Assembly: GCF_030486405.1 (NCBI RefSeq)
Contig: NZ_CP129613.1
Location: forward strand, 496,001-560,000
Reading direction: 5' to 3'
DNA length: 64,000 bases
Origin: Mycolicibacterium sp. HK-90
GTDB lineage: Bacteria; Actinomycetota; Actinomycetes; Mycobacteriales; Mycobacteriaceae
Shown here piece after piece: positions 10,903-47,835 of the stretch. Numbering within the stretch: the stretch's first letter is position 1; each line of letters starts with the position of its first letter. Both the position numbers and the translations under genes were made by a program. Below the pieces are notes generated by a model. The model saw only the letters and a program-made list of their open reading frames with translations. It made no database searches and was not told the DNA's origin.

Positions 10903-12117
10903 TCATGACGTGGAACCGGCCTGGATCATCGGCTCGTCGAAGTCGATGTGGTGCCCTTGAAGCCAGTGCATCGAGCGCGCGCCGTCGCGGGCGGCTCGCC
11001 TGAAGGCAAAGGGCAGTAACGCATCCCGAAAGATCCGCGCCACCGGGCCGGCGGCTTTGGTGGTAGCTGAGCGCGCTCCGTATTTGACGATGCGTTGCAC
11101 CCGCGCCCGGCGCACCGATTCAAACATCCGGAACGCCGGTTCGACACCCGCGCTGTCCCGCAGACATTTGGCGAGGATCACCGCGTCCTCAACAGCCATG
11201 GCAGCACCTTGTCCCGCCGAGGGCGCGGTCGCGTGGGCCGCGTCGCCGATGATGAGCATCCGATCGTTGCGCCAACGCCGGACCACCGGCATGTCGTATG
11301 TCGCCCAACCGAACATCGGCCCGGGCGCGGCGTCGATGATGGCCGGCGCAGGACCCACATCGCCGTCCATCAGTTCATGCAACCAGCAACGCCACTGTTC
11401 ATCGGTCATTCCTGCCATGACGCCGTTGGCCGGCTCCCGGTCCATCGGTGGATTGGCGAACCACACCGCTCCGCCATCGGGTACGGCCATCCACGCGAAG
11501 AAGCAGCGCGTGCCGAACTGCATCCGGAATTCCCGGGCGGGCATGTCGATGGGGAAATTTGGAATGTAGCCGCCGATGTTGAGGACCGGAACATATCGCG
11601 GCGGGATTGCGGCGGGATCGATCAACATACGGGTTCGGGAGTGGATGCCGTCGCAGCCGATCAGTAGATCGCCGGTTGCCCGGCCACCGTCGGCGAAACG
11701 TGCTTCAACACCGTGGGGTGTGCGTCCGGCGTGGATAAGTTCTTTGTCGTGCACGATGTCGATCCCCTCGCCGGTCGCAATATCCGACAGTGCGGTGTAG
11801 AGCTCGTCGCGGCGCATCATCTGCGAGAGCTGTTGATCATCGCGCGGCGCGGCCAACGGCATCCGACCCAGGTGTCGCCCCTTCCCGTTGATGAAGCTGA
11901 TGGTCTCCAGGTCGAATCCCAGCGATTCGATCGATTCGGCGATCCCGATTGCTCGTAGCGCATCCATGCCGTTGGCTTGAAATGTCAACCACGAACCGCG
12001 GTTTCGCTGAGGCGTTGTTTCCCGTTCGTAGACCACTGCTTCGATGCCGACGCGTTTGAGGGCGATTGCCAGTACCGGTCCGGCCACGCCACCTCCGATC
12101 ACGATCGCACGCGTCAT
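10903..12117 (-). CDS. FAD-dependent monooxygenase (PHBH-type aromatic hydroxylase family)
   Basis: This is a 404-residue class A flavoprotein. The motifs in order are the N-terminal GxGxxG variant AIVIGGGVAGPVLAIAL, the DG motif LIGCDGIHSRTR near residue 155, and the GD motif MLIIGDAAHATAPSAGQGAA near residue 285. Such enzymes use NAD(P)H and O2 to hydroxylate aromatic or polyketide-like substrates. ATG 12117 is chosen because GGGAAGG lies just upstream; a longer GTG start at 12135 lacks this. It is transcribed divergently from a MarR regulator, with two palindromes between them, the classic layout of a MarR-controlled aromatic or drug response. Confidence 0.85.
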   Translation of the reverse strand: MTRAIVIGGGVAGPVLAIALKRVGIEAVVYERETTPQRNRGSWLTFQANGMDALRAIGIAESIESLGFDLETISFINGKGRHLGRMPLAAPRDDQQLSQMMRRDELYTALSDIATGEGIDIVHDKELIHAGRTPHGVEARFADGGRATGDLLIGCDGIHSRTRMLIDPAAIPPRYVPVLNIGGYIPNFPIDMPAREFRMQFGTRCFFAWMAVPDGGAVWFANPPMDREPANGVMAGMTDEQWRCWLHELMDGDVGPAPAIIDAAPGPMFGWATYDMPVVRRWRNDRMLIIGDAAHATAPSAGQGAAMAVEDAVILAKCLRDSAGVEPAFRMFESVRRARVQRIVKYGARSATTKAAGPVARIFRDALLPFAFRRAARDGARSMHWLQGHHIDFDEPMIQAGSTS

Positions 12118-12155
12118 GGCCGGCTGCCTTCCCACAATGAGCTCGATAACGTACC

Positions 12156-12206
12156 TTGATTATCAAATGAATATTAGTATGAAAGTTGAGTTACTTGATT
12201 GTCAAG
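12156..12206. promoter_or_regulatory. Two MarR-type palindromic operators
   Basis: Two related palindromes occur in the divergent promoter: TTGATTATCAA at 12156-12166 and CTTGATTGTCAAG at 12194-12206. Both share TTGA-N3-TCAA and lie about 39 bp apart centre to centre. The second overlaps the probable start codon of the MarR gene. This arrangement fits autorepression by the adjacent MarR protein and repression of the monooxygenase; binding is inferred. Confidence 0.6.
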
Positions 12207-12666
12207 ACAAGTTGGGGTTCGGACTGACCTAGCCGAGGCGATCGCCCGCTATCAGGCTGCGGTCGACGACTTCGACCGCGAGTGCGCCCGCGTCCTAGGG
12301 GTCAACGAAACTGATCTGCGGTGCCTGGAGATCCTGATCCGGGAGGTCGGTGACGCGACGCCGCGGTATCTGGCTGATGGTCTCGGGCTCACGACTGGCA
12401 GTGTGACGGCGATGCTGGACAGGCTGGAGAAACTGAATTATGTGCAACGGAAGCCACATCCAGATGACCGCCGGAAAGTGATCGTCGCACCGACTCCCCA
12501 TGCGGTGAGCCGGGTTGACGAACTCATAGCCCCATTGGTTGCCGACGGAAACAACTTGCTCGGCGGCTACAACCAGTCCGATCTCGCCTTAATCTGCGAA
12601 TTCCTCACTCGGACTGCCGATCTGCAACACCAACACACGATGCAGCTTCGGCGGCAAGGCAACTAG
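12199..12666 (+). CDS. MarR-family transcriptional regulator
   Basis: This is a protein of about 155 residues. The winged helix-turn-helix is clear: DLRCLEILIREVGDATPRYLADGLGLTTGSVTAMLDRLEKLNYVQRKPHPDDRRKVIVAPT, with the DxRxx wing motif (DDRRK). MarR proteins bind phenolic or other small ligands and release DNA. The start is uncertain: TTG 12199 is in frame but lies inside a palindrome, while a nearby ATG at 12179 is in another frame and reaches a stop after 17 codons. It probably regulates the divergent FAD monooxygenase and itself. Confidence 0.85.
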   Translation: MSRQVGVRTDLAEAIARYQAAVDDFDRECARVLGVNETDLRCLEILIREVGDATPRYLADGLGLTTGSVTAMLDRLEKLNYVQRKPHPDDRRKVIVAPTPHAVSRVDELIAPLVADGNNLLGGYNQSDLALICEFLTRTADLQHQHTMQLRRQGN

Positions 12667-14225: not shown

Positions 14226-14960
14226 TCAACGGCTTCTCAGCGAGGCAAGCATTCCGTCGAACATCGACCGTAGATGATCGCGCATGGCCTCACGGGCACG
14301 CGCTGCGTCGTTGGTCCGGAGTGCCGCAACGATCGACTCGTGTTCCTCGATGATTAACGCTGAAGATCCAAGACCGGCGCTGACCAAGTGCAACCGCTGA
14401 TTGTCGCTGAAAACCTGCTCAAGCGCGCCCGAGAGCCGCGCGCTGCCGGAGGCGCCTGCGATGATGCGATGAAAGTCATAGCAGCGCTCATCGAAGGTCT
14501 GTGCTGGCACATCGAGGTCAATCGGACTGGTACACAGCTCCTCTAACTGAGCCAGGCTAGTGGCGTCAATTGTTTGTGCAGCCCGCTCTGCGGCCGCGGT
14601 TTCGAGTACTTCTCTCATGAAATAGATGTCCTGGGCGTCAGCAAGGCTGAGGGTGCGAACCATGTGCCCGCGATAGGGGAGGACGGTGATCACGCCTGCT
14701 CGTTCGAGTGCGACGAGCGCCTCGCGTACCGGCGTCCGCGAGACGCCGTAACGCTCTGCCAGCGCAGCGGTGTTGAGAACATCGTCGGGCGCGAATGCCC
14801 CTGTCGAGATCTCTAAGAGGATCTTCTGACGCACGTCTTCGGATAACGGGACCTTGCGTGAGTTCCGTGTGCTGCGTCCGTCGACCGTTCCTTGAGTCGT
14901 GCGGCGGGTAGGCGTCGCCGACCCATCCCCTTGTTTAGTCGACGCTTTGCTTGTGGCCAT
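14226..14960 (-). CDS. GntR-family regulator, FCD (FadR-type) class
   Basis: This is a 244-residue protein. The N-terminal winged helix (LSEDVRQKILLEISTGAFAPDDVLN, then LAERYGVSRTPVREALVALERAGVI) is followed by an FCD ligand-binding domain with the helix pattern DIYFMREVLETAAAERAA and HRIIAGASGSARL. FadR/FCD regulators sense organic acids and usually repress the neighbouring catabolic operon. ATG 14960 is preceded by GAGGAG. It is divergent from the PF06684-type and enamidase-like genes, so it is the likely regulator of the 15-22 kb cluster. A perfect palindrome, GCAACATGTTGC, lies between them at 15048-15059. Confidence 0.87.
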   Translation of the reverse strand: MATSKASTKQGDGSATPTRRTTQGTVDGRSTRNSRKVPLSEDVRQKILLEISTGAFAPDDVLNTAALAERYGVSRTPVREALVALERAGVITVLPYRGHMVRTLSLADAQDIYFMREVLETAAAERAAQTIDATSLAQLEELCTSPIDLDVPAQTFDERCYDFHRIIAGASGSARLSGALEQVFSDNQRLHLVSAGLGSSALIIEEHESIVAALRTNDAARAREAMRDHLRSMFDGMLASLRSR

Positions 14961-15047
14961 CCATTCACTCCTCGGCACGATTCTGATCGAGCTGGACATC
15001 ACGGTAGACGGTGGAGCTGCGACGGCCAATATTTCGTTGACATTCCT

Positions 15048-15059
15048 GCAACATGTTGC
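15048..15059. promoter_or_regulatory. 12-bp perfect palindrome, candidate GntR operator
   Basis: GCAACATGTTGC reads the same on both strands and lies between the GntR gene and the divergent operon, about 50 bp before ATG 15111. Position and symmetry fit an operator. The sequence does not closely follow the usual FadR-type TGGT/ACCA core, so the assignment is tentative. Confidence 0.4.
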
Positions 15060-15110
15060 TTGTATGTCATCGGACCGAGTGGTCGAAATGGCCGATAGGA
15101 AGGGAACACG

Positions 15111-15698
15111 ATGTCTGCTGATGGCCTGACAATCCGAAAAATCTGGAGTCAAGTCGAGGAGACGCGGCTGGTCGCCGGGACAGCCGATGATCAGGGGCCG
15201 CTCCGCAAGGTGGCAGTATGCGCCGTGGTGACGAATCCCTACGCCGGCGAGGGGTACGTGGCCGACCTGTCGCAGATCATTGAGGGTTCTGAAGCGGTTG
15301 CAAAGGAAATCGGTGCTGAAGCGGCCAGGCTCCTGGCCGCACCGGTCCAGAGCTATGGCAAGGGTGGTATCGCTGGGAGCGCAGGAGAACAGGAGCACAT
15401 CAACGCCGCTCTGACGTCGGTCTTCGGGGATGCCTTGCGGGCCGAGGTCGGCGGCGGGGAGGCATGGATCACCTCCGTGACCAAGGTCGGCGGTGTCGGG
15501 GTGAGTGTTGACGTGCCACTGGCTTTCAAGGACGACGTGTGGGTCCGGAGCCACTACGACGCGATGACGATCACCGTGCCAGACGGTCCGCAGCCGAATG
15601 AACTTGTTGTCATCGCAGTGGTGGCCAACCGTGGCAGGCTCAACGCCCGGCTCGGCGGCAAGTCTGTCTCCGAGGCTCTGAATGTGGCGAACTCATGA
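15111..15698 (+). CDS. Amino acid synthesis family protein (PF06684/DUF1185)
   Basis: This is a 195-residue protein matching the PF06684 pattern: IRKIWSQVEET, VAVCAVVTNPYAGEG, then SYGKGGIAGSAGEQEHINA and GVSVDVPLAFKDDVWVRSHYDAMTI. Structural work on family members found a chorismate-mutase-like fold, but the reaction is unknown. They commonly sit beside amidohydrolases. Here the gene overlaps the enamidase-like gene by 4 bp, so the two are coupled and probably act on the same compound. A ribosome site (AGGAAGGGA) precedes ATG 15111. It is the first gene of the GntR-regulated operon. Confidence 0.82.
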   Translation: MSADGLTIRKIWSQVEETRLVAGTADDQGPLRKVAVCAVVTNPYAGEGYVADLSQIIEGSEAVAKEIGAEAARLLAAPVQSYGKGGIAGSAGEQEHINAALTSVFGDALRAEVGGGEAWITSVTKVGGVGVSVDVPLAFKDDVWVRSHYDAMTITVPDGPQPNELVVIAVVANRGRLNARLGGKSVSEALNVANS

Positions 15699-16891
15699 CC
15701 ACGCTGGTCGTCACCGGCGCATCAACGATGCTGTCCGGTGATATGTCAGGACCCGTTATCGACGGCGCAGACACGATCGTGTGCACCGACGGCGTGATAA
15801 GTCAGATCGGCCGAAGTCAAGATCTGCAGGCGTCGCTCACGGCAGCCGACATCGTCATCGACGCGGTGGGCAGCACCGTAGCGCCCGGACTGATCGATTC
15901 TCACTGTCACGTCGTACTCGGCGACTACACGCCGCGCCAGAAGACGGTCGATTTCTTGGCGAGCTACGTCCATGGCGGGATCACCAGCGTAGTTTCGCCA
16001 GGTGAGATACACGCACCAGGGCGTCCGCACTCGGCGGTGGGCGTCAAGGCGCTGGCGATCGCGGCGAAGACATGCTTTGACAACTTCCGGCCCGGAGGGA
16101 TGTCGGTACACGCAGGCGCGGTCGTGCTGGAGCCGACGTTGCAGCCCGAAGATTTCGCTGAACTGCAGCGAGCGGGAGTGAAGCTCGCGAAGTTCGGCTT
16201 CGGTGAATACACGGATCCTGCGCAAGGCCGCGACCAGGTGAAATGGGCGCAGGAGCACGGAATCACAGTGATGTGCCACTCTGGCGGGGCCAGCATTCCG
16301 GGAAGTCAACCGATCACACCGGATCATCTGCTTACTCTGGCGCCCGATGTCTGCGGTCACATCAACGGCGGGCCTACCGCGCTCAGTGAAAGCGGAGTGG
16401 ACCGCATCATGGATGAGACTGAGATGGCATTGCAGCTGGTGCAAGCCGGCAACCTACGGTCATCGGTCCGGATCCTGCGGCGAGCGCTGGAGTCGGGCAA
16501 CTTCCACCGCATCGTCATCGGCTCAGACACTCCCACTGGAACAGGCGTGATGCCGCTGGGGGTTATCAAGACCGTTGCCGAATTGTCCTCGCTGGCCGAG
16601 GTGGATCCGGCATTGATGTGGGCGGCCGCCACCGGTAACAACGCGCGCACGTGGGGGCTTCCAGCTGGGGTTATCCGGGTTGGTGCCGCCGCTGACATCG
16701 TCGTCATGGATGCTCCGTGGGGGTCCGGAGCCCCAGATGCAGTTGGAGCCTTGTCGGTTGGTGATATTCCAGGTATTTCGGCGGTCATCGCCGGCGGCGC
16801 CGTCCGAGCGCTCAAGAGCCGAAACACACCGCGTGCTGCGCGGCTCGCTACGGTGACACCGCGTCTGGAGCACCTCGAAGCGGCGCACTGA
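15695..16891 (+). CDS. Enamidase-like amidohydrolase
   Basis: This is a 398-residue metal-dependent amidohydrolase. Expected metal ligands are visible: H70 and H72 (DSHCH), K166 (where many family members carry a carboxylated Lys), H195 (MCHSGG), H222 (GHINGGP) and D278 (GSDTPTGTG). The blocks GDYTPRQKT-DF, PGRPHSAVG-KALAI, GHINGGPTA and RIMDET resemble enamidase of nicotinate fermentation, which opens a cyclic enamide to an aldehyde and ammonia. From memory the bacterial enamidase has Glu where K166 stands here, so the metal site may differ. It overlaps the PF06684-type gene by 4 bp and is followed by a strong terminator. The substrate is inferred only as a cyclic amide or enamide. Confidence 0.82.
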   Translation: MTTLVVTGASTMLSGDMSGPVIDGADTIVCTDGVISQIGRSQDLQASLTAADIVIDAVGSTVAPGLIDSHCHVVLGDYTPRQKTVDFLASYVHGGITSVVSPGEIHAPGRPHSAVGVKALAIAAKTCFDNFRPGGMSVHAGAVVLEPTLQPEDFAELQRAGVKLAKFGFGEYTDPAQGRDQVKWAQEHGITVMCHSGGASIPGSQPITPDHLLTLAPDVCGHINGGPTALSESGVDRIMDETEMALQLVQAGNLRSSVRILRRALESGNFHRIVIGSDTPTGTGVMPLGVIKTVAELSSLAEVDPALMWAAATGNNARTWGLPAGVIRVGAAADIVVMDAPWGSGAPDAVGALSVGDIPGISAVIAGGAVRALKSRNTPRAARLATVTPRLEHLEAAH

Positions 16892-16900
16892 CTTAATCCA

Positions 16901-16951
16901 CACAACAGGCCCGCAGGCTGCCCTCCACGGACAGCCCGCGGGCCTGTTGTG
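16901..16951 (+). terminator. Strong stem-loop terminator
   Basis: Arms 16902-16920 and 16932-16950 pair over 19 bp with one mismatch (ACAACAGGCCCGC against GCGGGCCTGTTGT at the base). The loop is about 11 bases. It begins 10 bp after the enamidase-like stop. The T-run is lacking, as is common in mycobacteria. Confidence 0.75.
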
Positions 16952-17334
16952 GCATAGCCGTGTGGGTCTTATAGAGATATGGTCGCTCGCGCTGCCTGAA
17001 CCCGAAAAGGGCTTCCTGGACCAAGGCTGTAGTTCGCTGCGTGTCAAACATTTTGGCGTGCCACTTGCGCTGTAGGGGATGACGCAAAGGACGTACATCG
17101 GAGAGGGAGTCCCGCACGCCGGCGTCGATTCTCGTAACGAACCCTCTTGTCTGCTTCCAAACGCCGTAGCAGCGGTCATCGCATGAGCTGGCGACAAACT
17201 GGCAATGCGCAATCGTTAAGTCAGGTCTGGCATTAGTGATCGGAAAGTGTAAATAGACTTCATGATCTTAATCGGCCAGAGTTGCTAGTGCACAAGGCAT
17301 TTCGTCTTGTGCAGCCACGGAAGGGGTTTTGAAT
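16952..17334. other. Promoter region of the SDR-tautomerase operon, no gene seen
   Basis: About 380 bp separate the terminator from ATG 17335. No coding frame is convincing. The last 120 bp are AT-richer and probably hold the promoter of the downstream operon, so the 17.3-22.2 kb genes are likely transcribed apart from the enamidase operon. Confidence 0.4.
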
Positions 17335-18123
17335 ATGGCAAACCGTGTCGCAGTCGTTACCGGCGGTGCTAGCGGACTTGGTGAAGCGTCTGCCAAACGG
17401 CTCGCCGCCGATGGTTACGACATCGCTCTGCTCGATGTGAATGACGCCGGTGGTGGTCGCGTGCAGTCGGAGATCACCAGCGAGGGGGGCAAGGCGCACT
17501 ACTACCACGTCGACGTCTCCGACGCGGCCGCGCTAGAGGAAACTGCCGCAGCTGTCGCTCGTGACCTGGGTACGGTCGAGGCGCTGGTCACCTCGGCGGG
17601 CCTGACTCCAAACAGTGAGGCGATCCTCGAGATGGACATGGCGGCCCACGAACTGATGTGGAAGGTCAACTATTTCGGCACGATTCACGCCTGTCAGTCC
17701 TTCGGCCGTGTCATGGCATCGCAGAAGCGGGGTGCGATAGTAACTCTCGGCTCGATTCACAGCAGACTTCCGATGCCTCTGCCTGCGTACAACCCAGGCA
17801 AGGCGGCCATCGAGCGACTTACGCAGCTGCTCGCGGTGGAACTGGGTCGGTTCGGAGTCCGGGTCAACAGTGTCGGGCCCACTCATGTGATGACGCCGCC
17901 TTTGATGGCTGCGATCGAAGCCGGCGAACGCGACATGACCAAGATCATGGAGGTTCACGCGCTGGACTACCTGCCGTCTACCGAGGACGTGGCCGAGGCG
18001 ATCGCCTTCCTGTGCTCGGATCAAGCCAAGGCCATCACCGGAGTCCTCCTGCCCATCGATAGCGGAGCGCTCGCAGGTATTTCGTACAAGACCTATGCAG
18101 GCGGCGTTCCGTGGAAGCAATAG
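17335..18123 (+). CDS. Short-chain dehydrogenase/reductase
   Basis: This is a 262-residue SDR: TGGASGLGEASA near the N terminus, TSAGL in place of NNAG, Ser in LGSIHSR, and the catalytic pair YNPGK. An AGGGG site precedes ATG 17335; a TTG two codons earlier is less likely. Neighbours are a tautomerase, dehydroquinase-like proteins, a flavoprotein and an aldehyde dehydrogenase, so the SDR probably oxidises or reduces a hydroxy or keto intermediate. The C-terminal extension (GISYKTYAGGVPWKQ) is longer than usual and may shape the active site. It is the first gene of its transcription unit. Confidence 0.85.
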   Translation: MANRVAVVTGGASGLGEASAKRLAADGYDIALLDVNDAGGGRVQSEITSEGGKAHYYHVDVSDAAALEETAAAVARDLGTVEALVTSAGLTPNSEAILEMDMAAHELMWKVNYFGTIHACQSFGRVMASQKRGAIVTLGSIHSRLPMPLPAYNPGKAAIERLTQLLAVELGRFGVRVNSVGPTHVMTPPLMAAIEAGERDMTKIMEVHALDYLPSTEDVAEAIAFLCSDQAKAITGVLLPIDSGALAGISYKTYAGGVPWKQ

Positions 18124-18181
18124 CCAATCCCACCAGCATGAGTGGCACCTACGCGGGACAACCAAATCGCCGGAGGTTTCA

Positions 18182-18370
18182 ATGCCTCTCGTAGAGATCA
18201 CGCTCTACCACGGCCGCACACCCGAACAGAAGGTGGCGATCGCAAAGGCGGTGTCGCATGCGCTGATCGACGAGGGCGGTGCGGCTCCGGACTCGGTGCA
18301 CGTGATCTTCCGTGCTTGCGAAGCGCGCGACTGGCTGAAGTCTAGAGAACTGCTCGACGACTCACAGTAA
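18182..18370 (+). CDS. 4-oxalocrotonate tautomerase-family protein
   Basis: This is a 62-residue protein beginning MPLVEITLYHGRTPEQKVAI. Pro2 becomes the N-terminal catalytic proline after Met removal, as in the 4-OT family, and the length is normal for it. The family interconverts enol and keto forms of unsaturated acids, often after ring opening. GGAGG lies directly upstream of ATG 18182. Arg residues later in the chain (FRACEARDW) could bind a carboxylate. It is placed between the SDR and the dehydroquinase-like pair in the same operon, consistent with handling an enolic intermediate. Confidence 0.85.
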   Translation: MPLVEITLYHGRTPEQKVAIAKAVSHALIDEGGAAPDSVHVIFRACEARDWLKSRELLDDSQ

Positions 18371-18422
18371 CCAACTGCGTGGGCACCGGCCTGCACCATA
18401 CATTCACCGAAAGGTAAGCAAT

Positions 18423-18929
18423 ATGAGCAAATTCGGTCAACTGCGCCGTAGCGACACACAATGGAGGATCGCGGTCCTCAGCGGCCCAAACACGGTGCCC
18501 GCCCTGCGATCTGTGCCAGATTTCACCGATCAGCTGGAAAGCTGGGGCCAGGCACTCGACGTGCAAGTGCGGCACATACAGTCCAATCATGAAGGACAGC
18601 TCTTGGAGCTCGTCCACAGCAGCTGCGCGGACACTGACGGCTATCTGGTCAACCCTGGCGGGTTAACCGCTGTTGGAGAATCACTGCGCCACTGCCTCAA
18701 GGATGCGAAACGTCCCTGCGTCGAAGTTCATTGGGACAATGCCGAGCTAGGCGAGCAATCCATTTTCGCCCCCAGCGTGACGGCGATCTTCTCTGGCCTC
18801 GGCCATTTCAGTGTGTTGGGAGCACTGACCTCGTTGGTGCTTGCGCTGGACGATGCGGACTTCTTGCACCCCCGAGGAACCAGCGAATTCAATCGCGCTC
18901 ACGGCACCCCCCGTTCGCTCTACCAGTAA
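18423..18929 (+). CDS. Type II dehydroquinase-like protein lacking the catalytic lid
   Basis: This is a 168-residue flavodoxin-like protein of the type II 3-dehydroquinate dehydratase family. The family blocks are QSNHEGQL (53-60), YLVNPGG (74-80, Asn77) and VEVHWDN (100-106, His103). The lid segment that normally carries an Arg and the catalytic Tyr (LGxREPxIYG) is replaced by VPALRSVPDF, with no Tyr. Activity as a normal dehydroquinase is therefore unlikely. It is paired with a lid-containing paralogue 16 bp downstream. It may be a partner subunit or a lyase with a changed mechanism. The C-terminal tail is longer than usual. Confidence 0.8.
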   Translation: MSKFGQLRRSDTQWRIAVLSGPNTVPALRSVPDFTDQLESWGQALDVQVRHIQSNHEGQLLELVHSSCADTDGYLVNPGGLTAVGESLRHCLKDAKRPCVEVHWDNAELGEQSIFAPSVTAIFSGLGHFSVLGALTSLVLALDDADFLHPRGTSEFNRAHGTPRSLYQ

Positions 18930-18945
18930 CGATAGGAAGAGTCAT

Positions 18946-19437
18946 ATGACCGCTACTAAAGAAATCAATCGTCTGCCAGACGCCCCAGCCTGGCGAATCG
19001 CATTGCTCAATGGCCTGAACATGACCAACCTCGGCCGTCGGGATAAGAACGTCTACGGCACCATTGGTTCGTTGCAGGAACTGGAGAGCCTCGTTAGCGA
19101 GGCGGGTCGCCATCTCGACACCCATGTGCTCGCCTTTCACTCGAATCACGAAGGAGATCTTGTCGACTTCATCGAGTCCGATGATTCGTTCGACGGTTAC
19201 TTGATCAACCCAGGTGGGCTGTGGGCATTCGGTGTTCCAACGCGGATCGCATTGGAACAGTCCGGAAAGCCTTTCGTCGAAGTGCATTTCGCCAATATCT
19301 TTGCCACAGGCCACCGTTCGACGTTCACTCAGTCAGCGGCGGGTACGGCTATGGGCTTCCGTCACCACGGATACCTCGGGGCGATAGCGGCTTTGGTGGC
19401 GACCCTCGATGCCAGCGCAGAGCAGGCACGATCGTGA
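18946..19437 (+). CDS. Type II 3-dehydroquinate dehydratase-like enzyme
   Basis: This is a 163-residue protein with all main catalytic positions of type II dehydroquinases: LNGLNMTNLGRRDKNVYG (Arg31/32 and Tyr37), NHEGDLVD, INPGG (Asn88), EVHFANI (His114) and an HRS motif with Arg124. Differences from housekeeping AroQ (NPGG for NPGA, a long N-terminal extension, no shikimate genes nearby) suggest a catabolic dehydratase acting on another cyclic or hydroxylated substrate. GGAAGA precedes ATG 18946. The next gene starts inside its stop codon (GTGA), so the flavoprotein is translationally coupled. Confidence 0.82.
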   Translation: MTATKEINRLPDAPAWRIALLNGLNMTNLGRRDKNVYGTIGSLQELESLVSEAGRHLDTHVLAFHSNHEGDLVDFIESDDSFDGYLINPGGLWAFGVPTRIALEQSGKPFVEVHFANIFATGHRSTFTQSAAGTAMGFRHHGYLGAIAALVATLDASAEQARS

Positions 19438-20705
19438 GCGACCTCGCCGACGTTATCGTCGTCGGATGCGGGGTCCAGGGACTGAGCGTCGCGCTCAACA
19501 TCGCGCGACGAGGCCAGCGTGTCATCGCTGTCGATCGGGTCGGACCAGGACAGCAGACTTCGGCCCGTGCGGCTGGCCAATCCGTCATAGCGCAGACCGA
19601 CCCCGCAATGGGCGCGCTGATGCACCGCAGTATCGCCGGTATCGTTAACTTCACTGCTCGCACTGGTATCGCGTTGCCGTACCACCAGGTGGGCAGCATC
19701 AAGTACGCCTGCCAGGAATGGTCCGCGCGCCAGTTGGAACGTGAAGTGTCACGCGCGAGGATGCTCGGCGCGCGTGTCGACATGATCGATCTCATCGATG
19801 CGGGCAAACTCGCGCCGCACACTGATCCGACGGCAGCGACCGCGGCGTGGTATTCCCCAGATGACATCTATTTTGAACCACCGCTTTTGGTGGAAGCCAT
19901 GTACCAGGCAGCGCTCGATGCCGGCGTTGATTTTCGATTTGGGGTGAGCGTCGCCGGCATCGTCGCAGCAGGGGGCAAAGTCAGCGGGATCGACTCAACC
20001 GCGGGCCGCTTAGTATCTGAAGCAGTTGTCGTGGCAGCGGGAAGCTGGACAGCGCCCCTGCTGGAGGATGCCCTGGGTACGTCGCTTCCGCTGAGCTATG
20101 TGCGCCATCAGTACTCGATTCGTACCGAGGTGCCTGGGATCAACCCATCCCTGCCGTCGGTACGTGTTGTCGACCACGCGGTGTATGCCCGGCCCGTAGG
20201 CGCGGACCTGATGTTTGGCACCTACGAACCGCACCCGCTGACTTTCGATGCTGCGGCGTTACCCGCTCACACCGAAGATGTGCCGCTAGAGGCGGCCGCG
20301 ATTGACGACGCCTTGAGCCAAGTAGCGCGAATCTTTCCCACGGTGACAGGGTCGCCGGTGAGGCAGCTGAGAGGTGGGGTGGTCACGATGACCCCCGACG
20401 GCAGCTACATCATTGACCATTGCGATGCGGCGGCAGGCCTGTACTTCTCAGCGGGCTGCAATGTGATGGGGCTTTCTGTCGCACCCGCGCTGGGCGAAGA
20501 CATCGCGGAATGGGTGATCACCGGGCGCCGGCCCGACTCGTTGGCGGGATTTTCGGCGTCACGATTCGATGGAAGCCTGGGGGCCTCGGCCGAATTAGAG
20601 GGCCGTGCGTTGCGCCAATACGAAGCGATCTACCGGGACGAACAGTCACTACAGCACGTGCGAGTCTACGGCGGCGGTTACCGAGGTCGGCAGGCCTGCA
20701 CTTAA
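19434..20705 (+). CDS. DAO-family FAD oxidoreductase (sarcosine oxidase/DadA-like)
   Basis: This is a 423-residue flavoprotein with an N-terminal FAD motif (DVIVVGCGVQGLSVAL), an acidic strand end (AVDR) and the DAO-fold C-terminal FAD contact around YFSAGCNVMGLSVAP. The middle block YEPHPLTF and the RQLRGGVVTMTPDGSYIID segment are typical of sarcosine/dimethylglycine oxidase-type amine oxidases. It probably oxidises a C-N bond of an amine or imino acid to an imine. GTG 19434 overlaps the dehydroquinase-like stop by 4 bp. No covalent-FAD Cys can be assigned with confidence. Its place before an aldehyde dehydrogenase suggests the imine hydrolyses to an aldehyde. Confidence 0.82.
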   Translation: MSDLADVIVVGCGVQGLSVALNIARRGQRVIAVDRVGPGQQTSARAAGQSVIAQTDPAMGALMHRSIAGIVNFTARTGIALPYHQVGSIKYACQEWSARQLEREVSRARMLGARVDMIDLIDAGKLAPHTDPTAATAAWYSPDDIYFEPPLLVEAMYQAALDAGVDFRFGVSVAGIVAAGGKVSGIDSTAGRLVSEAVVVAAGSWTAPLLEDALGTSLPLSYVRHQYSIRTEVPGINPSLPSVRVVDHAVYARPVGADLMFGTYEPHPLTFDAAALPAHTEDVPLEAAAIDDALSQVARIFPTVTGSPVRQLRGGVVTMTPDGSYIIDHCDAAAGLYFSAGCNVMGLSVAPALGEDIAEWVITGRRPDSLAGFSASRFDGSLGASAELEGRALRQYEAIYRDEQSLQHVRVYGGGYRGRQACT

Positions 20706-20769
20706 CGGCAGCGTTGCGGCCTCGACGAGAGCGCGAGACCGACTGCCGCAATTGAAGGAGAAGCACATA

Positions 20770-22245
20770 GTGAAAGTCGCTTGTCCGACCCGCCTGTACA
20801 TCGACGGAAGTTGGGCCGGGTCGGCCTCTGACGCAACTTTTGTCGTTGAAGACCCCGCGACAGGAGCTGAGGTAGTCGCAGTCGCCGATGCCACTCCGGA
20901 AGACGGTGTCGCCGCGCTCGACGCAGCGTGCGCAGTGCGCGACAGCTGGCAATCGACCCCGCCACGAGTGCGTGGTGAGATCCTGCGCCGGGTGTTCGAG
21001 GCCCTGACGGCGCGCACTGAGGAATTCGCCCGGATAATCACGCTCGAGGCGGGCAAACCGATTATCGAATCACGCAGCGAGGTTGCCTACGCCGCAGAGT
21101 TTCTACGATGGTTCGCCGAAGAAGCCGTTCGTGTCGGCGGTCGTACCGCTATCTCTCCGGACGGCAAGAGTCGGCTATGGGTCGAGCGGCGTGCCGTAGG
21201 TCCGTGCCTGCTGATCACGCCATGGAACTTTCCGTTGGCGATGGCGACCCGCAAGATCGCTCCAGCTGTGGCCGCCGGATGTCCGATGGTCGTCAAACCC
21301 GCCGAGCTGACACCGCTGAGCACGCTGTTGCTGGCTGAGCTGTTCATCGACGCGGGTCTGCCGAACGGCGTCCTCAACATCGTCCCGACATCCGATCCCT
21401 CAGCATTGACTCGTAGGCTGCTATCGGATCCGAGGTTGCGGAAAGTCTCGTTCACAGGGTCAACACCTGTTGGTCGTACACTGCTTCAGCTGGCTTCCAC
21501 ACACGTTGTTCGCACGTCAATGGAGCTCGGCGGCAATGCACCGTTCATCGTATTCGCCGATGCGTGTGTTGACGCGGCAGTGGCTGGCGCGGTTCAGGCC
21601 AAGCTGCGCAACGGCGGTCAAGCGTGTACTGCCGCGAATCGCTTCCTTGTTCATGAATCGGTGGTAGATGAATTTAGTGCGAAGTTTGCGGCCCACATGG
21701 ACCAGCTGCGCCTCGGGCCTGGCATAGACCCTCGCACTGACATCGGGCCGCTGATCAATCAGCGTGCCGTTGACAAGGTGGCGGGACTCGTAGAGGACGC
21801 AGTTGACGAATCCGGCGCCCGCGTGCTGACGCGAGGACAATCGTCTGACCGCTCGGGGTACTTCTTCAGACCCACTGTGCTTGCAGACGTACCGGTGACG
21901 GCGGATGTCCTCGATCACGAGATTTTCGGACCGGTGGCGCCGATCTCGAGCTTTTATTCGGACGAGGAAGCTCTGCGGTACGCGAATGACACCGAATATG
22001 GCTTAGCGGCATACGTTTACACGAGCGACCTGGATCGGGCGATGACGATGTCGGAGAGCATCGAAGCCGGAATGGTGGCAGTCAACACGGGTCTGATCTC
22101 AAATCCGGCAGCGCCGTTTGGGGGCATCAAGCAGTCCGGGCTCGGCCGAGAAGGCGGCGCAGAGGGCATCGCCGAGTACCTTGATATCCGCTACGCGAGC
22201 TTTCCTGCCACTCGATTTAACGGTCGGTCACAGCAGGCCGGTTGA
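20770..22245 (+). CDS. NAD(P)-dependent aldehyde dehydrogenase (succinate-semialdehyde dehydrogenase-like)
   Basis: This is a 491-residue ALDH. Catalytic residues are Cys286 (GGQACTA) and Glu252 (MELGGNAP), with the oxyanion Asn in TPWNFPLA. The C-terminal block NTGLISNPAAPFGGIKQSGLGREGG is typical of GabD-like enzymes. It would oxidise an aldehyde, perhaps a carboxy-aldehyde from ring opening, to the acid. GTG 20770 follows AAGGAGAAG. It ends the operon and overlaps the convergent LysR gene by 29 bp. The substrate is inferred from context, since GabD-like sequences accept several semialdehydes. Confidence 0.88.
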   Translation: MKVACPTRLYIDGSWAGSASDATFVVEDPATGAEVVAVADATPEDGVAALDAACAVRDSWQSTPPRVRGEILRRVFEALTARTEEFARIITLEAGKPIIESRSEVAYAAEFLRWFAEEAVRVGGRTAISPDGKSRLWVERRAVGPCLLITPWNFPLAMATRKIAPAVAAGCPMVVKPAELTPLSTLLLAELFIDAGLPNGVLNIVPTSDPSALTRRLLSDPRLRKVSFTGSTPVGRTLLQLASTHVVRTSMELGGNAPFIVFADACVDAAVAGAVQAKLRNGGQACTAANRFLVHESVVDEFSAKFAAHMDQLRLGPGIDPRTDIGPLINQRAVDKVAGLVEDAVDESGARVLTRGQSSDRSGYFFRPTVLADVPVTADVLDHEIFGPVAPISSFYSDEEALRYANDTEYGLAAYVYTSDLDRAMTMSESIEAGMVAVNTGLISNPAAPFGGIKQSGLGREGGAEGIAEYLDIRYASFPATRFNGRSQQAG

Positions 22246-23140
22246 CCCCGAACGCCTGACGAAACGCTCCGCGCACCGCGGCGATCGCCGGATGGTCCTG
22301 CGAGCCGGCCCGGCAGGTCGTGACTATCGTGCGGGTATGTGAACGTGCCATCCAACGCAGGTGAAATGTCGGCCGCCGTCCGAACCACAAGAGGTCGGGT
22401 AAGAACGCTACGGCTTGCCCGCGTGCGACCAGCTCAGCTTGGACGAGATTGTCGCTGGTTTGATGCTCAATGCGAGGGTCGAATCCTGCATGGCGACACG
22501 TGGCCACCGCCCATTCGCGAGTGGGGCTTCCGGGCAACTCCATCACCCACGGATGCTCGGCGAAGTCTTCGAGCCGGGTGTCAAACGCATTCCGGCCTTC
22601 GGGCGGTTCACGAAACGCCACGCGCATCGGATCGTCAGCAATCGCTTCCAGATGCGTATCCGAAGACCGAGGAGCCGGGAAATCGGCGAACCCTTCGTCG
22701 CATACGAGGTCGAATTCACGCGCTAGCAACCCAGGTATCGCCACATCAGGTTCTGCTTGCGTCAGACGCACACGCAATCCGGGATGGGTTGCGGCCAGGG
22801 TGGTGAGCATCTCCGGCACGCATGCCAGAGCGGCGGTCTGGATAGTCGCCAACCGCACAGACCCGACCACATTCTGCATCGACGCGGCAATCTCAGCTTC
22901 GGCGGCCTCGAGTTGTTCAAGAATGACCGAAGTGTGCTGAACGAGAATCTCGGCCTGCGGCGTCAGCTGCACGCGTCGCCCATCCGGCACCAGTAATTGA
23001 GCTCCGATCTCGCGTTCGAGTACTGCGAGTTGCTGAGAGACCGCAGACGAACTGTAAGACAAGGCTGCCGCCACCGAAGTCACCGTCCCTCGATGCGCCA
23101 ACTCGCGGAGCAACTGCATCCGGCGCAGGTCAAACTTCAT
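22217..23140 (-). CDS. LysR-family transcriptional regulator
   Basis: This is a 307-residue protein. The N-terminal helix-turn-helix reads MQLLRELAHRGTVTSVAAALSYSSSAVSQQLAVLEREIGAQLLV, followed by the substrate-binding domain (GSVRLATIQTAALACVPEML). LysR proteins usually activate a divergent or nearby operon with a small effector. It is convergent with the aldehyde dehydrogenase and divergent from the permease at 23531, so the permease is its most direct target candidate. About 390 bp of promoter DNA separate them. Confidence 0.87.
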   Translation of the reverse strand: MKFDLRRMQLLRELAHRGTVTSVAAALSYSSSAVSQQLAVLEREIGAQLLVPDGRRVQLTPQAEILVQHTSVILEQLEAAEAEIAASMQNVVGSVRLATIQTAALACVPEMLTTLAATHPGLRVRLTQAEPDVAIPGLLAREFDLVCDEGFADFPAPRSSDTHLEAIADDPMRVAFREPPEGRNAFDTRLEDFAEHPWVMELPGSPTREWAVATCRHAGFDPRIEHQTSDNLVQAELVARGQAVAFLPDLLWFGRRPTFHLRWMARSHTRTIVTTCRAGSQDHPAIAAVRGAFRQAFGVNRPAVTDR

Positions 23141-23530
23141 GGCCAGATATTACCCCAGGATAGCGGACAAAATATGACTTTTTCATAAGAAATAGTGGAT
23201 AGTTTTGGTGTGCGCCTACTTGGCCCTGGCTTCGCATTTCGCATGCTTCGCCATATCTGAATCGCCGGGGAGGTGGGGCGAACAGGTGCGATGCGCCTAG
23301 CTAATACGGAAGAACTTCTTAGCGATACCCCGCGACATTTCGCGCTTTACTGGAAATGTCAACCGCGGAGATGATCGGTGAACGACGGTGAGTGATCTCA
23401 GTAACATTGCGTTCGCGCAGCGTCCCTGGGATGACGACACCGCCGGCCATCCCAACGAATCATCAAACGTAAGGACGCCAGCTATGCAGCACGCGACCCT
23501 GTGTAGGACCGCCGCGGCGGGAGAAGTGCG
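23141..23530. other. Divergent promoter region between LysR and permease
   Basis: No gene is seen. The first 60 bp beyond the LysR start are AT-rich (TATTACC, TTTTTCATAAGAAATAG), which suits a promoter. No clear LysR box could be assigned by eye. Confidence 0.4.
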
Positions 23531-25003
23531 ATGAAGCCATCCAGCCGGGTCGAAGTCGGTCTTACACGCCAACTAAGTCGCCGAAAACCGCCCCACAACA
23601 TCATTCCCGGCGAGGCGCACGCTACTCAGCTCAAACGGTCTATCGGCACGTTCCAGCTCACGATGTTCGGTGTGGGCGCCACCATTGGAACCGGCATCTT
23701 CTTCGTGCTCAGCATGGTCGTTCCAGTCGCTGGCCCATCGGTCATCGTGTCGTTCATCATCGCGGGTATCGCCGCGGGGCTCGCCGCTATCTGTTATGCC
23801 GAACTTGCATCCTGCATTCCGGTGTCAGGGTCGGCATACTCGTATGCATACGCGACCCTGGGCGAGCTTGTCGCTGTCGTCGTCGCGGCCTGCCTCGTCC
23901 TGGAATATGGTGTGTCTACGTCTGCGACAGCAGTCAGCTGGAGTCAGTATCTGAACAAGCTGATCGAGAATCTGCTCGGATTTCGAATCCCAGAAGCGTT
24001 GTCGGCGTCGCCATTTGATGCTGATCCCGGCATCATCAACCTCCCCGCGATGGTGCTGATCTTGTCTTGCGCGCTATTGCTCATCCGTGGCGCCACCGAG
24101 TCTGTTCTTGTGAATACCATCATGGTGTTACTGAAGGTGGGAGTGCTAATCGTATTCGTTATCGTTGGCTTCACCGCTTTCACCTCGGGCAACCTGGTCC
24201 CGTTCGCACCCCACGGTGTTGCGGGTATCGGCGCAGCCACCGGAACGATCTTCTTTTCGTACGTCGGACTTGATGCCCTGGCAACCGCAGGCGAGGAGGT
24301 CAAGAACCCGAAAAAGACGCTGCCGCGCGCGTTCATCTACGCCCTGGCCATCATCATGGTGGTCTACATCCTCGTGGCACTGGTCGCTGTCGCTGCCCAA
24401 CCCTGGGAGCAGTTTGAGGGACAACAAGCCGGCCTCTCCCAGATCTTGGAAAACATCGTGGGCGCCTCCTGGCCCGGCACCATAATCGCCGCGGGGGCGG
24501 TGATCTCGATTGCATCGGTCACGCTGGTCACGCTATACGCACAAACTCGCATCCTGTTTGCGATGGGCCGCGACGGCATGGTGCCCGCAGCGTTTGCACG
24601 AGTACATCCCAAGAGCCAAACACCGGTATTCGCAACGATTGTCGTCACGGTCATTGTCGCCCTTCTCGCGGCCACCGTCCCACTCGACGATCTCGCGGAC
24701 CTCGTGTCGATCGGAACCCTGGTGGCATTCATCGTCGTGTCCGCTGGGGTCATCCTCCTGCGTCGTACCGATCCCGACTTGCCGCGAGCATTCAAGGTGC
24801 CCGGCTACCCTGTCACTCCGATCCTGGCGATCCTCGCCTGCGGATATGTTCTGTCCACCCTGCACTGGGTCACATTCGCCTGGTTCACGGCGTGGGCTGG
24901 CGCGGCAGTTGTGTTCTACCTCCTATGGGGGCGCCGGCACTCGAAACTCGCTACTGACCCTCAATCGGACAACACAGTGCTCTATTCCGAGGCTCCAAAG
25001 TGA
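23531..25003 (+). CDS. APC-superfamily amino acid permease (CAT-like)
   Basis: This is a 490-residue protein with about 12 membrane helices. The family marks are the first-helix motif MFGVGATIGTGIFFVLSMVV, FIIAGIAAGLAAICYAELASCIPVSGSAYSYAYATLGEL and the loop FSYVGLDALATAGEEVKNPKKTLPRA. These are typical of cationic-amino-acid-type APC transporters that take up amino acids or amines by proton symport. It could import the substrate of the 15-22 kb enzymes. A GGGAG site precedes ATG 23531. A small frame starting GTG 25000 overlaps the stop, but it is not convincing as a gene. Confidence 0.9.
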   Translation: MKPSSRVEVGLTRQLSRRKPPHNIIPGEAHATQLKRSIGTFQLTMFGVGATIGTGIFFVLSMVVPVAGPSVIVSFIIAGIAAGLAAICYAELASCIPVSGSAYSYAYATLGELVAVVVAACLVLEYGVSTSATAVSWSQYLNKLIENLLGFRIPEALSASPFDADPGIINLPAMVLILSCALLLIRGATESVLVNTIMVLLKVGVLIVFVIVGFTAFTSGNLVPFAPHGVAGIGAATGTIFFSYVGLDALATAGEEVKNPKKTLPRAFIYALAIIMVVYILVALVAVAAQPWEQFEGQQAGLSQILENIVGASWPGTIIAAGAVISIASVTLVTLYAQTRILFAMGRDGMVPAAFARVHPKSQTPVFATIVVTVIVALLAATVPLDDLADLVSIGTLVAFIVVSAGVILLRRTDPDLPRAFKVPGYPVTPILAILACGYVLSTLHWVTFAWFTAWAGAAVVFYLLWGRRHSKLATDPQSDNTVLYSEAPK

Positions 25004-27884: not shown

Positions 27885-27994
27885 CCATAAGCCTTCGCTA
27901 TTGGGTACCGAAGGAAAGTGGGCGTTGTCCCTATTACACGACGTTTCTATCGTTGTTGGAACAGCTCGCATAGCTACCGTTGAAGGGACACCGA
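27885..27994 (+). promoter_or_regulatory. Promoter/leader of the HisD-like operon, conserved in the upstream decayed copy
   Basis: About 100 bp before GTG 27995 match 26582-26690. The most conserved blocks are CGTTTCTATCGT, TGGAAC and TACCGTTGAAGGGA; the last ends in the ribosome site. Conservation in a copy that has otherwise decayed is partly due to common origin, so only part of it need be functional. Confidence 0.45.
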
Positions 27995-29290
27995 GTGCTC
28001 AAAGTAAAGGATGCCGCCGTCGGAGACGTTGCCGGCGCCGGCTCCAACGACCAGGTGGCCACCACCGTCGCAACGATGATTCACGACATCCGGCTTCGCG
28101 GAGATGACGCCGTCCGCGAGTACTCCGCTCGTCTGGATGACTACGATCCTAAATCATTTCGCATGTCGCCCAAAGATATTGAAAACGTAATGAAACGCGT
28201 TCCGAGGCAGACGTTGGAAGATATCCGCACCGTCCAGGCGAATGTGCGCCGGTTCGCGGAACTCCAGCTGGAGTCACTGCGTGATTTCGAATCCGAGGTG
28301 CAGCCCGGAATCATTTTGGGGCAGAAGAATATTCCGGTTGATGCGGTTGGTGCATACATTCCCGGGGGGCGCTACCCGCTGCTCGCTTCGGCACATATGA
28401 CAATCGTGACAGCGAAGGTCGCAGGAGTGCCCCGAGTCGCCGCAGCGACCCCGGCTCCGGGAGGAGAAATTCCGGATGCGTCCATTGCGGCAATGCACCT
28501 CGCGGGCGCAGATGAGATCTACCTCCTTGGCGGCGTGCAAGCCGTCGCCGCGATGGCCTTGGGTACACAGACCGTCAAGCCAGTGGATATCCTTGCAGGG
28601 CCGGGTAATGCATATGTCGCAGAGGCGAAGCGACAACTATTCGGTGAGGTTGGCATCGATCTGTTCGCAGGTCCGACCGAAGTTCTGATCATCGCCGATG
28701 CTGACGCCGACCCTTTCGTTGTGGCCGTCGACCTCCTCAGCCAGGCTGAGCACGGGCCGGATTCGCCGGCGATTCTCATTACGACGTCCCAGCCTCTGGC
28801 CGAGCAGGTCGCGGTCGAAATCGACCGGTTGCTGCCGGGGATGTCTACCGGCGCTATAGCCGGGGCAGCCTGGCGCGACCATGGGCAGATCATCGTCGTC
28901 GATACGCTGAACGATGCATTCGAACTCAGTGACGAGTTCGCTAGTGAGCACGTCCAGGTACTAACCGCTGCGCCGCGCGAGGCGCTGGATAAGCTGCGCA
29001 ATTACGGTGCTCTGTTCCTTGGCGACAAGACGTGTGTCTCCTACGGAGACAAAGTCATTGGCACAAATCATGTACTGCCCACCCGAGGTGCCGCCCGTTA
29101 CACCGGTGGTTTGTGGGTGGGAATGTTCATGAAGACTGTTACCTACCAAGAGGTTCGCACGCAGGACGCCACGGCCGCTCTTGGTGAGTTGCTTGGACGA
29201 GCCGCTCGTGCTGAGAACTTCGAAGGCCACGCCCGATCGGGTGACATCCGTGCCTGCGTACCCGGTCAACGCCCTAGATGGGCGCACTAG
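27995..29290 (+). CDS. Histidinol dehydrogenase-family alcohol dehydrogenase (sulfopropanediol dehydrogenase HpsN-like)
   Basis: This 431-residue enzyme has the HisD fold: PVDAVGAYIPGGRYPLLASAHMT, ILAGPGNAYVAEAKR, DLFAGPTEVLIIAD, the zinc/catalytic region AEHGPDSPA, ASEHVQV (Glu-His pair) and GTNHVLPTRGAARYTGG, then EGHARSGDIR. Blocks around RFAE, LGQKNIPVDA and SYGDKVIGTNHVLPT resemble HpsN, a HisD relative that oxidises (R)-sulfopropanediol to sulfolactate, more than true HisD. No his genes are nearby. It probably oxidises a primary alcohol to the acid in two NAD-linked steps. GTG 27995 follows GAAGGGA. It overlaps the lyase start by 13 bp. Confidence 0.83.
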   Translation: MLKVKDAAVGDVAGAGSNDQVATTVATMIHDIRLRGDDAVREYSARLDDYDPKSFRMSPKDIENVMKRVPRQTLEDIRTVQANVRRFAELQLESLRDFESEVQPGIILGQKNIPVDAVGAYIPGGRYPLLASAHMTIVTAKVAGVPRVAAATPAPGGEIPDASIAAMHLAGADEIYLLGGVQAVAAMALGTQTVKPVDILAGPGNAYVAEAKRQLFGEVGIDLFAGPTEVLIIADADADPFVVAVDLLSQAEHGPDSPAILITTSQPLAEQVAVEIDRLLPGMSTGAIAGAAWRDHGQIIVVDTLNDAFELSDEFASEHVQVLTAAPREALDKLRNYGALFLGDKTCVSYGDKVIGTNHVLPTRGAARYTGGLWVGMFMKTVTYQEVRTQDATAALGELLGRAARAENFEGHARSGDIRACVPGQRPRWAH

Positions 29291-30711
29291 AGATGGGCGC
29301 CCAGCGGTGTGCTGAGGATCGCATAGAGCGCGACCACCTCGGCGAAGTATCAATTCCGGCCGGCTCGCTGTGGGGCGTCAATACCTACCGCGCGCTCGAG
29401 AACTTCACCGCAGGCTCGGAGAAGTTAGGCGAATATCCCATCCTTGTCGCGGCGTTAGCTGCTGTGAAACAGGCAGCCGCACAGACGAATGCGGACCTCA
29501 AGTTGCTGTCACCGTCCGTGAGTTCAGCTATCATCGGGTCTTGCGAGGAAATTCGCGCGGGCAGCCATTTGGACCAGTTCCCGATCGAAATGCTACAGGG
29601 CGGTGCGGGCACCTCAACCAACATGAACGTCAACGAGGTCATCGCGAATCTTGCTCTGATCCGGCTCGGAGCCCAACCCGGTGAATATCACGTGGTCGGA
29701 CCGAACGAGCATGTCAATCTCGGGCAATCGACCAACGATGTCTATCCCGCGGCGCTCAAGCTCGCGGTCTTGGAATACGGACTCGCCCTGATCAGGGGCA
29801 TTCAGCACCTGCAAGCGGCTTTCGGGCGCAAGGCAGTCCAGTTCGCGGGTCAGGTGAAGGTCGGTCGAACGCAGTTGCAGGACGCGGTGCTGATGACGCT
29901 TGGGCAAGAGTTCGGTGCTTACGCGGAGTCGATGCGTGAAGAAGTGACTTCGATGACGCGGGCACTGGCAGGCATGCGGGAACACCATCTCGGTGGCACG
30001 GCGATCGGCACTGGAGTCAACGCCGACCCACGATACGGCGAGCTTGTAACCCGCCATCTTCGCGACATCACGGGGGTAGATACGTCGACGGCACCCGACT
30101 TGATCGAGGCCACCCAAGACGTCGGATCGTTCGTCACGGTGTCGGGCGCGCTCAAACGTGTAGCCATCAAACTGTCGAAGTGCTGCAACGATTTGCGGTT
30201 GCTTTCGTCGGGTCCGAGGGCCGGGTTGAACGAAGTCACACTTCCACCACGGCAAGCGGGCTCGAGCATCATGCCGGGCAAAGTCAATCCTGTAATCCCC
30301 GAACTGGTCAATCAGATCGCGTTCGATGTCGTCGGAGCAGATACCACGATCACACTTGCCGCTGAGGCCGGCCAGTTGCAGCTCAACGCTTTTGAGCCAG
30401 TCATCGGGTATTCGCTGTTGAAGGGCTTGGCACGTGTGGAACGCGGCTGTGTCATCCTGGCGGACAGGTGCATTGACGGTATCGAGGCCAATTCCGAACG
30501 TCTCAACTTGATGGTCGAAGCCAGCCTGGCTCCAGCGACCCTCCTGAGCCGTGTCATCGGGTACCGCGCCGCCGCTGAGATCGCCCAACACGCACTGATG
30601 ACGGGTTCATCAGTTCGCGACGTTGCCCTCGACCGTGCTGTGCTCTCCTCTGCCGAACTTGACGACGTCATCGGCAGCGCCGCGCTCAATAACAGCACCG
30701 GAATCCGATAG
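29278..30711 (+). CDS. Aspartase/fumarase-superfamily lyase, aspartase-like
   Basis: This 477-residue protein has the superfamily signature GSSIMPGKVNPVIPE near residue 330, plus GGAGTSTNMNVNEV, QSTNDVYPAA and VGRTQLQDAVLMTLGQEFGAY. The RTQLQDAV and NPVIPELVNQI wording is closer to aspartate ammonia-lyase than to fumarase. It should remove ammonia (or add it) across a C-C bond of an aspartate-like acid. The start is either ATG 29278 (overlapping the HisD-like stop) or ATG 29293. Presence beside an HpsN-like dehydrogenase suggests the alcohol is first oxidised to an amino acid, then deaminated. Confidence 0.83.
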   Translation: MGALEMGAQRCAEDRIERDHLGEVSIPAGSLWGVNTYRALENFTAGSEKLGEYPILVAALAAVKQAAAQTNADLKLLSPSVSSAIIGSCEEIRAGSHLDQFPIEMLQGGAGTSTNMNVNEVIANLALIRLGAQPGEYHVVGPNEHVNLGQSTNDVYPAALKLAVLEYGLALIRGIQHLQAAFGRKAVQFAGQVKVGRTQLQDAVLMTLGQEFGAYAESMREEVTSMTRALAGMREHHLGGTAIGTGVNADPRYGELVTRHLRDITGVDTSTAPDLIEATQDVGSFVTVSGALKRVAIKLSKCCNDLRLLSSGPRAGLNEVTLPPRQAGSSIMPGKVNPVIPELVNQIAFDVVGADTTITLAAEAGQLQLNAFEPVIGYSLLKGLARVERGCVILADRCIDGIEANSERLNLMVEASLAPATLLSRVIGYRAAAEIAQHALMTGSSVRDVALDRAVLSSAELDDVIGSAALNNSTGIR

Positions 30712-30748
30712 ACCAGCATCACAACAGGTTTCACGAAGGAGAAGTACT

Positions 30749-47823: not shown

Positions 47824-47835
47824 CGGCAGCCCTTC

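Follow-up and report, generated by a model that had tools for sequence, protein, structure and literature searches.

We analysed a 64,000-nucleotide stretch of DNA (hereafter the window), positions 496001-560000 of the 6.49-Mb single-contig genome of Mycolicibacterium sp. HK-90, which carries over about 11 kb (14226-25003) a candidate catabolic gene cluster that includes an enamidase-like amidohydrolase. The initial annotation had read the eleven genes of this cluster as one pathway. All eleven are present in open frames and their Pfam families match above cut-off. On gene content, the 11 kb consists of two modules. Module 1 comprises the genes of a PF06684 (AA_synth, formerly DUF1185) protein (15111-15698, plus strand; 192.5 bits, cut-off 27) and of the amidohydrolase (15695-16891, plus strand). 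Module 2 comprises the genes of an SDR dehydrogenase (17335-18123, plus strand; Pfam, 17335 being the best start), of two dehydroquinase-II-fold proteins, DHQa (18423-18929, plus strand) and DHQb (18946-19437, plus strand), and of a DAO-family flavoprotein of amine oxidase/dehydrogenase type (19434-20705, plus strand; PF01266, 179.6 bits; GTG start). The 11 kb is thus modular, since PF06684 and the amidohydrolase form a separate cassette found also beside Rieske dioxygenase and FAD monooxygenase genes. Inside the modules, two overlaps of 4 bp (PF06684/amidohydrolase and DHQb/DAO) and the 16 bp spacing from DHQa to DHQb suggest coupled gene pairs.

The sole strong relative of the amidohydrolase in the PDB is enamidase 2VUN of Eubacterium barkeri, an enzyme of nicotinate fermentation (E 2.7e-113, residues 4-387), with homology over the full length and 46.7% identity across 381 columns. 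In an alignment of 14 related proteins and 2VUN, positions His67, His69, His193, His220 and Asp276 of the latter (HxH/His/His/Asp) are kept, their roles as metal ligands being assigned from the alignment and the superfamily rule and not from the 2VUN paper. Glu164, which from the alignment we take to be the bridge in 2VUN, is in contrast replaced by Lys166 in the window protein, giving the ligand series HHKHHD. Because Lys166 stands where 2VUN has Glu164, a subtype I metal centre is predicted instead of a subtype II centre: in PMC11342369, a carboxylated lysine is described as bridging both metals in subtype I amidohydrolases, and glutamate replaces this lysine in subtype II. The initial enamidase-like assignment therefore stood as to homology with 2VUN but not as to the metal ligands and, by its putative bridging residue, the protein is not an enamidase. 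The same HHKHHD series was found in 120/120 nearest database proteins among the matches listed, the window's own included.

We then typed this residue in 36 non-duplicate amidohydrolase loci (the duplicates L002, L010, L011, L012 and L020 were left out; 14 out of 26 amidohydrolase matches in plasmids were fetched). Lysine occupies the bridging position in 24 and glutamate in 12, and the other five ligand positions are identical in 36/36. A same-strand PF06684 gene adjoins the amidohydrolase gene in 19/24 Lys rows against 3/12 Glu rows (Fisher p 0.003, indicative only, since related rows were counted as independent). Five of the 12 Glu rows carry instead two opposite-strand PF06684 genes; four of these loci are annotated with a 6-hydroxynicotinate reductase and the fifth is unannotated. 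For the remaining four Glu rows, no PF06684 gene was seen in the stretch examined. In the tree, the window protein falls in an all-Lys clade of 20 rows (support 97/99), and PF06684 is adjacent in 19 of them, the exception being a Rhodococcus locus (L013). Since the four Lys rows outside this clade have no adjacent PF06684, Lys may be ancestral and Glu derived; support for the branch uniting all Lys rows is weak (53/12). A genome of the same class carries an amidohydrolase nearly identical to the one of Streptomyces griseus. A second enamidase-like gene of the HK-90 genome, 36-37% identical and of Lys type, lies beside a molybdenum hydroxylase (L028, 2395001-2414000; 5586-11694); no PF06684 gene was found within 19 kb of it, and ABC transporter genes are nearby as judged by eye.

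The pairing of PF06684 with a Lys-type amidohydrolase appears in the loci compared as a recurrent, portable cassette. By Pfam, its neighbours in Aeromicrobium (L004) include Rieske, LigB and reductase genes, and a similar gene set surrounds it in two Streptomyces loci (L005 and L007, by eye from gene calls only). In Thermomicrobium it lies near genes for a molybdenum hydroxylase and Rieske proteins, and in Agrobacterium and Mariluticola near an FAD monooxygenase gene. The exceptional Rhodococcus amidohydrolase gene is likewise near annotated Rieske genes, without PF06684. As in the window, PF06684 has a GntR gene nearby in Mesorhizobium, Agrobacterium and Mariluticola. A succinate-semialdehyde dehydrogenase (SSADH) of 45-51% identity was found in the flank of 5/10 Lys-clade loci with long flanks (L004, L006, L013, L022 and L062).

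Concerning the PF06684 protein itself, its AlphaFold2 (AF2) model (pLDDT 88.6) matches 3byq and 2qtp, and profile and fold agree with PF06684/DUF1185. Weaker resemblances to Rid proteins, to chorismatase and to a cyclic amide hydrolase (Toblerone fold) lie below a trustworthy level. Across 15 diverse members, K84, E93, E95, H96, R110, R146, E164 and R180 are among the invariant residues, which by their conservation look catalytic. Structures of the family have been solved, and a settled enzymatic role was not found in the searchable literature. The role of PF06684 had been put down initially as unknown, yet published contexts exist: according to PMC7913881, a member named HcdD serves in 7-hydroxycoumarin breakdown and TgnF, of trigonelline breakdown in Acinetobacter baylyi, is called homologous and stimulates succinate-semialdehyde oxidation, while attempts to show a TgnF-like stimulation by HcdD failed. 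Elsewhere in the HK-90 genome (L008, 6037000-6056000; 5730-13810), we observed genes for a flavin reductase, a BCCT transporter, two PF06684 proteins, an alpha/beta hydrolase, an ALDH and a luciferase-like monooxygenase, with a GntR-like gene judged by eye. This is a trigonelline-type (tgn-like) cluster. The ring-opening oxygenase and the enamide hydrolase of the A. baylyi trigonelline pathway belong to other families than the enzymes here.

In module 2, DHQa and DHQb both match the DHquinase_II Pfam family, DHQb in its longer open reading frame. The AF2 model of DHQa has the dehydroquinase fold (Foldseek 1gqo, E 6.3e-10, TM 0.67/0.82); for DHQb the fold is assigned by profile only. Both thus resemble type II 3-dehydroquinate dehydratase (AroQ, 1gqo) in fold, in the Asn-Pro-Gly loop and in the Glu-His pair, and differ from it in substrate residues. 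In alignments, DHQb keeps the lid residues Arg32 and Tyr37 together with Asn88, Glu112 and His114 but shows, relative to 1gqo, His79 changed to Ala94, Arg106 to Thr121 and Arg110 to a gap or Gly. In DHQa the Arg/Tyr lid is wholly gone and Ala replaces the substrate-binding His of dehydroquinase, and the protein ends in a conserved C-terminal tail with the consensus DFLHP...NRxHGxPRSLY (strict pattern in 61/95 relatives). Since the substrate His/Arg residues are lost while a normal AroQ (204.5 bits, usual His and Arg) is encoded elsewhere in the genome, the pair, judged by these residues, is not a dehydroquinase. As the two genes adjoin and the losses are complementary, we infer that two different subunits, DHQa and DHQb, form a hetero-oligomer. 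DHQa is rare: among 5.8 billion proteins, a word-based search turned up 259 candidates with shared words, 95 of them related to it at E<=1e-3. In the window, a divergent FAD monooxygenase/MarR pair lies at 10903-12666, and a related pair (39%) adjoins a single DHQ-like gene in another genome (G658, L036).

The conservation of module 2 was examined by four separate searches (DHQb, DHQa, DAO and SDR) against 72,556 plasmid records. For all four genes the first-listed record was pWSM4875 of Mesorhizobium sp. WSM4875 (SDR 67.3, DHQa 61.8, DHQb 67.9 and DAO 60.3%), and p3_Teo12 of Shinella zoogloeoides was the next or a close match for SDR, DHQa and DHQb (63.5, 57.7 and 72.4%). The third SDR match, from Variovorax (61.5%), lacks a DHQ gene in its vicinity. 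One 17-kb stretch of pWSM4875 (L022) encodes seven of the proteins: DHQb (68%), SDR (67%), DHQa (62%), DAO (61%), amidohydrolase (48%), ALDH (47%) and PF06684 (46%). The same plasmid thus comes first for four genes and holds PF06684, the amidohydrolase and SSADH within its 17 kb, so that the gene set is beyond chance. On the 140-kb p3_Teo12 (L021, L032 and L016), six of those seven recur, DAO excepted (amidohydrolase 50%), the pieces being dispersed along the plasmid and separated by insertion sequences. In contrast to the window, both plasmids also carry a three-subunit molybdenum hydroxylase (large subunits 74% identical between them), an OYE-type flavoprotein (74%) and an AMDase-like protein (70%). 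The nearest solved chains to the Mesorhizobium large subunit are 6-hydroxypseudooxynicotine dehydrogenase, then, almost level, 4-hydroxybenzoyl-CoA reductase, which is not an N-heterocycle enzyme, and in third place quinoline 2-oxidoreductase. No description of the Mesorhizobium and Shinella clusters, nor of the window cluster as a whole, was found in the searchable literature; for Shinella strain Teo12, PMC10848231 reports isolation on TRIS, with the TRIS genes on another plasmid, p2. Two further observations were made on plasmids. On p3_Teo12 a second, partial PF06684 match (45%) adjoins a GntR gene (L032, 10678-11091). The Pseudonocardia plasmid pBCI1-2 (L037, 7998-14664) may hold a remote form of module 2, in which a DHQ-like gene occurs together with an SDR gene and with genes for a DAO-like flavoprotein, a fumarylacetoacetate hydrolase and a glycine betaine/proline ABC transporter.

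The remaining genes of the cluster flank these modules or lie between their members. The GntR/FCD regulator (14226-14960, minus strand; Pfam FCD and GntR) is divergent from module 1 across a 150-bp intergenic region. Its start is most likely at 14960, the shorter frame being preferred because a longer open reading frame, to 15554, would run beneath the divergent PF06684 gene. A 4-OT-type tautomerase of 62 aa (18182-18370, plus strand) matches PF01361 (40.3 bits, cut-off 22) and has the expected Pro after the initiator Met (MPLVEI start). Downstream of DAO lies an ALDH near succinate-semialdehyde dehydrogenases (20770-22245, plus strand), which matches the SSADH 4v6h in the PDB (E 3.5e-141). 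A LysR regulator (22217-23140, minus strand; Pfam) and an APC-family permease, likely an importer (23531-25003, plus strand; TIGR00909 458.5 bits, below the cut-off of 556.8), follow, and the membership of both is uncertain.

Taken together, we propose, with a probability of about one half, that the cluster degrades a hydroxylated N-heterocycle via enamide or lactam hydrolysis, loss of ammonia and CO2, and oxidation of a semialdehyde. An N-heterocycle is favoured because of the kinship with enamidase, the DAO flavoprotein, and the molybdenum hydroxylase in both relatives, of which the Mesorhizobium one has a pyridine-ring enzyme as its nearest solved chain. A semialdehyde product is favoured because an SSADH-like ALDH occurs in all three clusters and by analogy with trigonelline chemistry, which reportedly ends in succinate semialdehyde with the assistance of PF06684. 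From the gene content, conservation and residues observed, we infer each reaction, the order of steps, the substrate class and the decarboxylation by 4-OT or the AMDase-like protein. In this scheme the APC permease would import the compound, the SDR would convert a secondary alcohol to a ketone, and the DHQa/DHQb hetero-oligomer, through the Asn and Glu-His residues that it has kept, would catalyse an elimination (or similar enolate chemistry) adjacent to the ketone. DAO would act on a C-N bond, yielding an imine or enamine by oxidation. The lactam or enamide would be formed by the molybdenum hydroxylase in the relatives, and in the window organism by some other step. PF06684 and the subtype I amidohydrolase would then hydrolyse the enamide to ammonia and a formyl-carboxylate. 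Loss of CO2, by 4-OT here, by the AMDase-like protein in relatives or spontaneously, would give succinate or glutarate semialdehyde, to be oxidised by ALDH. The initial idea of a catabolic set with an enamidase-like ring or enamide hydrolase and a semialdehyde-type ALDH gained support. We tentatively extend it: PF06684 and the Lys-type amidohydrolase could well be a two-protein enamide/lactam hydrolase reused across unrelated pathways, with DHQa/DHQb as a hetero-oligomer performing a new reaction on an N-heterocycle.

Several points weigh against the proposed degradation pathway. The window encodes neither a molybdenum hydroxylase nor an OYE partner, and the closest proteins of the genome share 31% and 37% identity with those of Mesorhizobium, whose hydroxylase moreover has xanthine dehydrogenase XdhA as its best NCBIfam match, below cut-off. 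The window ALDH, at 539 bits, fails the SSADH cut-off of TIGR01780 (646.35), whereas the Mesorhizobium ALDH reaches 673.5, and SSADH-like genes (~46%) occur also in L033 and L034, both without the cassette, which makes the association of cassette and SSADH weak. No DAO gene was detected on p3_Teo12, of whose 140 kb 61 were read, and, beyond pWSM4875, no plasmid record among the 72,556 matches it at >=60%. Of the gene set whose conservation was at issue in the initial annotation, most is found together in Mesorhizobium and Shinella, but the stretches read of these two yielded no orthologue of LysR, APC or 4-OT, the last of which, at 62 aa, can easily escape notice. By tblastn, APC gave no match in L020-L022, L016 or L032, and LysR none in L020-L022 or L032 and a 28% match in L016 only. 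Finally, the amidohydrolase and SDR genes are 443 bp apart, and, within the flanks covered, Aeromicrobium, Streptomyces, Thermomicrobium, Agrobacterium and Mariluticola have module 1 but not module 2.

The gap and these five genera also speak for two unrelated neighbouring operons, a GntR-controlled PF06684/amidohydrolase cassette and an SDR-DHQ-DAO-ALDH operon acting on different compounds, as does the unequal identity to Mesorhizobium (46-48% for module 1 proteins, 61-68% for those of module 2). The modules nevertheless occur together in the 17 kb of Mesorhizobium and on one 140-kb Shinella plasmid although module 2 is rare, and we regard two such operons as unlikely, if the most serious of the alternatives. 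Catabolism of an oxygen ring or aromatic lactone, with the amidohydrolase as lactonase, is improbable. HcdD serves the breakdown of 7-hydroxycoumarin, a nitrogen-free substrate (PMC7913881), but the DAO, the amino-acid-type permease and the enamidase kinship point elsewhere, as does the relatives' molybdenum hydroxylase, nearest to a pyridine-ring enzyme with 4-hydroxybenzoyl-CoA reductase scoring almost equally. A modified form of the reductive nicotinate pathway, in which enamidase follows 6-hydroxynicotinate reductase, would fit the 46.7% identity to 2VUN and the occurrence of PF06684 genes in clusters with that reductase. We consider it very improbable, as proteins of nicotinate-type clusters keep the Glu that is Lys here and no 6-hydroxynicotinate reductase match was obtained in this genome at E 1e-5 (one query, no positive control). 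That DHQa and DHQb are ordinary dehydroquinases of a quinate/shikimate-type pathway, as their Pfam family, the fold of the DHQa model and the nearby SDR might suggest, is hardly credible given the loss of the His and both Arg in DHQb and of the lid in DHQa and the normal AroQ in the genome.

The catabolic cluster was probably acquired laterally, because DHQa was found in 1/198 genomes of the genus, the window's own, and the GC content at third codon positions (GC3) of the cluster is low, 0.65-0.75 against 0.79-0.92 in L008 of the same genome. Over window 8495-64000 the GC3 of most genes is 0.65-0.77, compared with 0.73-0.87 in the first 8 kb and with the L008 values, which suggests a large acquired region. 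Against this, low GC3 has no sharp boundary, the 12 kb before the window (L009) showing 0.64-0.82. Two other gene groups were noted in the window. A second candidate catabolic cluster at 27980-36157 encodes a histidinol-dehydrogenase-like protein, an aspartase/fumarase-like lyase, a zinc alcohol dehydrogenase, an ALDH and another amino-acid permease; by eye, a LysR-like gene is also present at 33507. At 46769-50338, on the minus strand, three consecutive DAP_DH_C-domain genes are followed by an SDR gene.

The genes described here thus make up a real, rare and cross-phylum catabolic set assembled from known enzyme kinds, not a categorically new system, and the cluster is a good place to begin the search for a new degradation pathway. 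As a clade exists in which PF06684 is almost always beside one amidohydrolase, the role of PF06684 becomes testable with two proteins. The DHQa/DHQb pair, for its part, would clearly exemplify a dehydroquinase of core metabolism turned into two subunits and recruited for catabolism.

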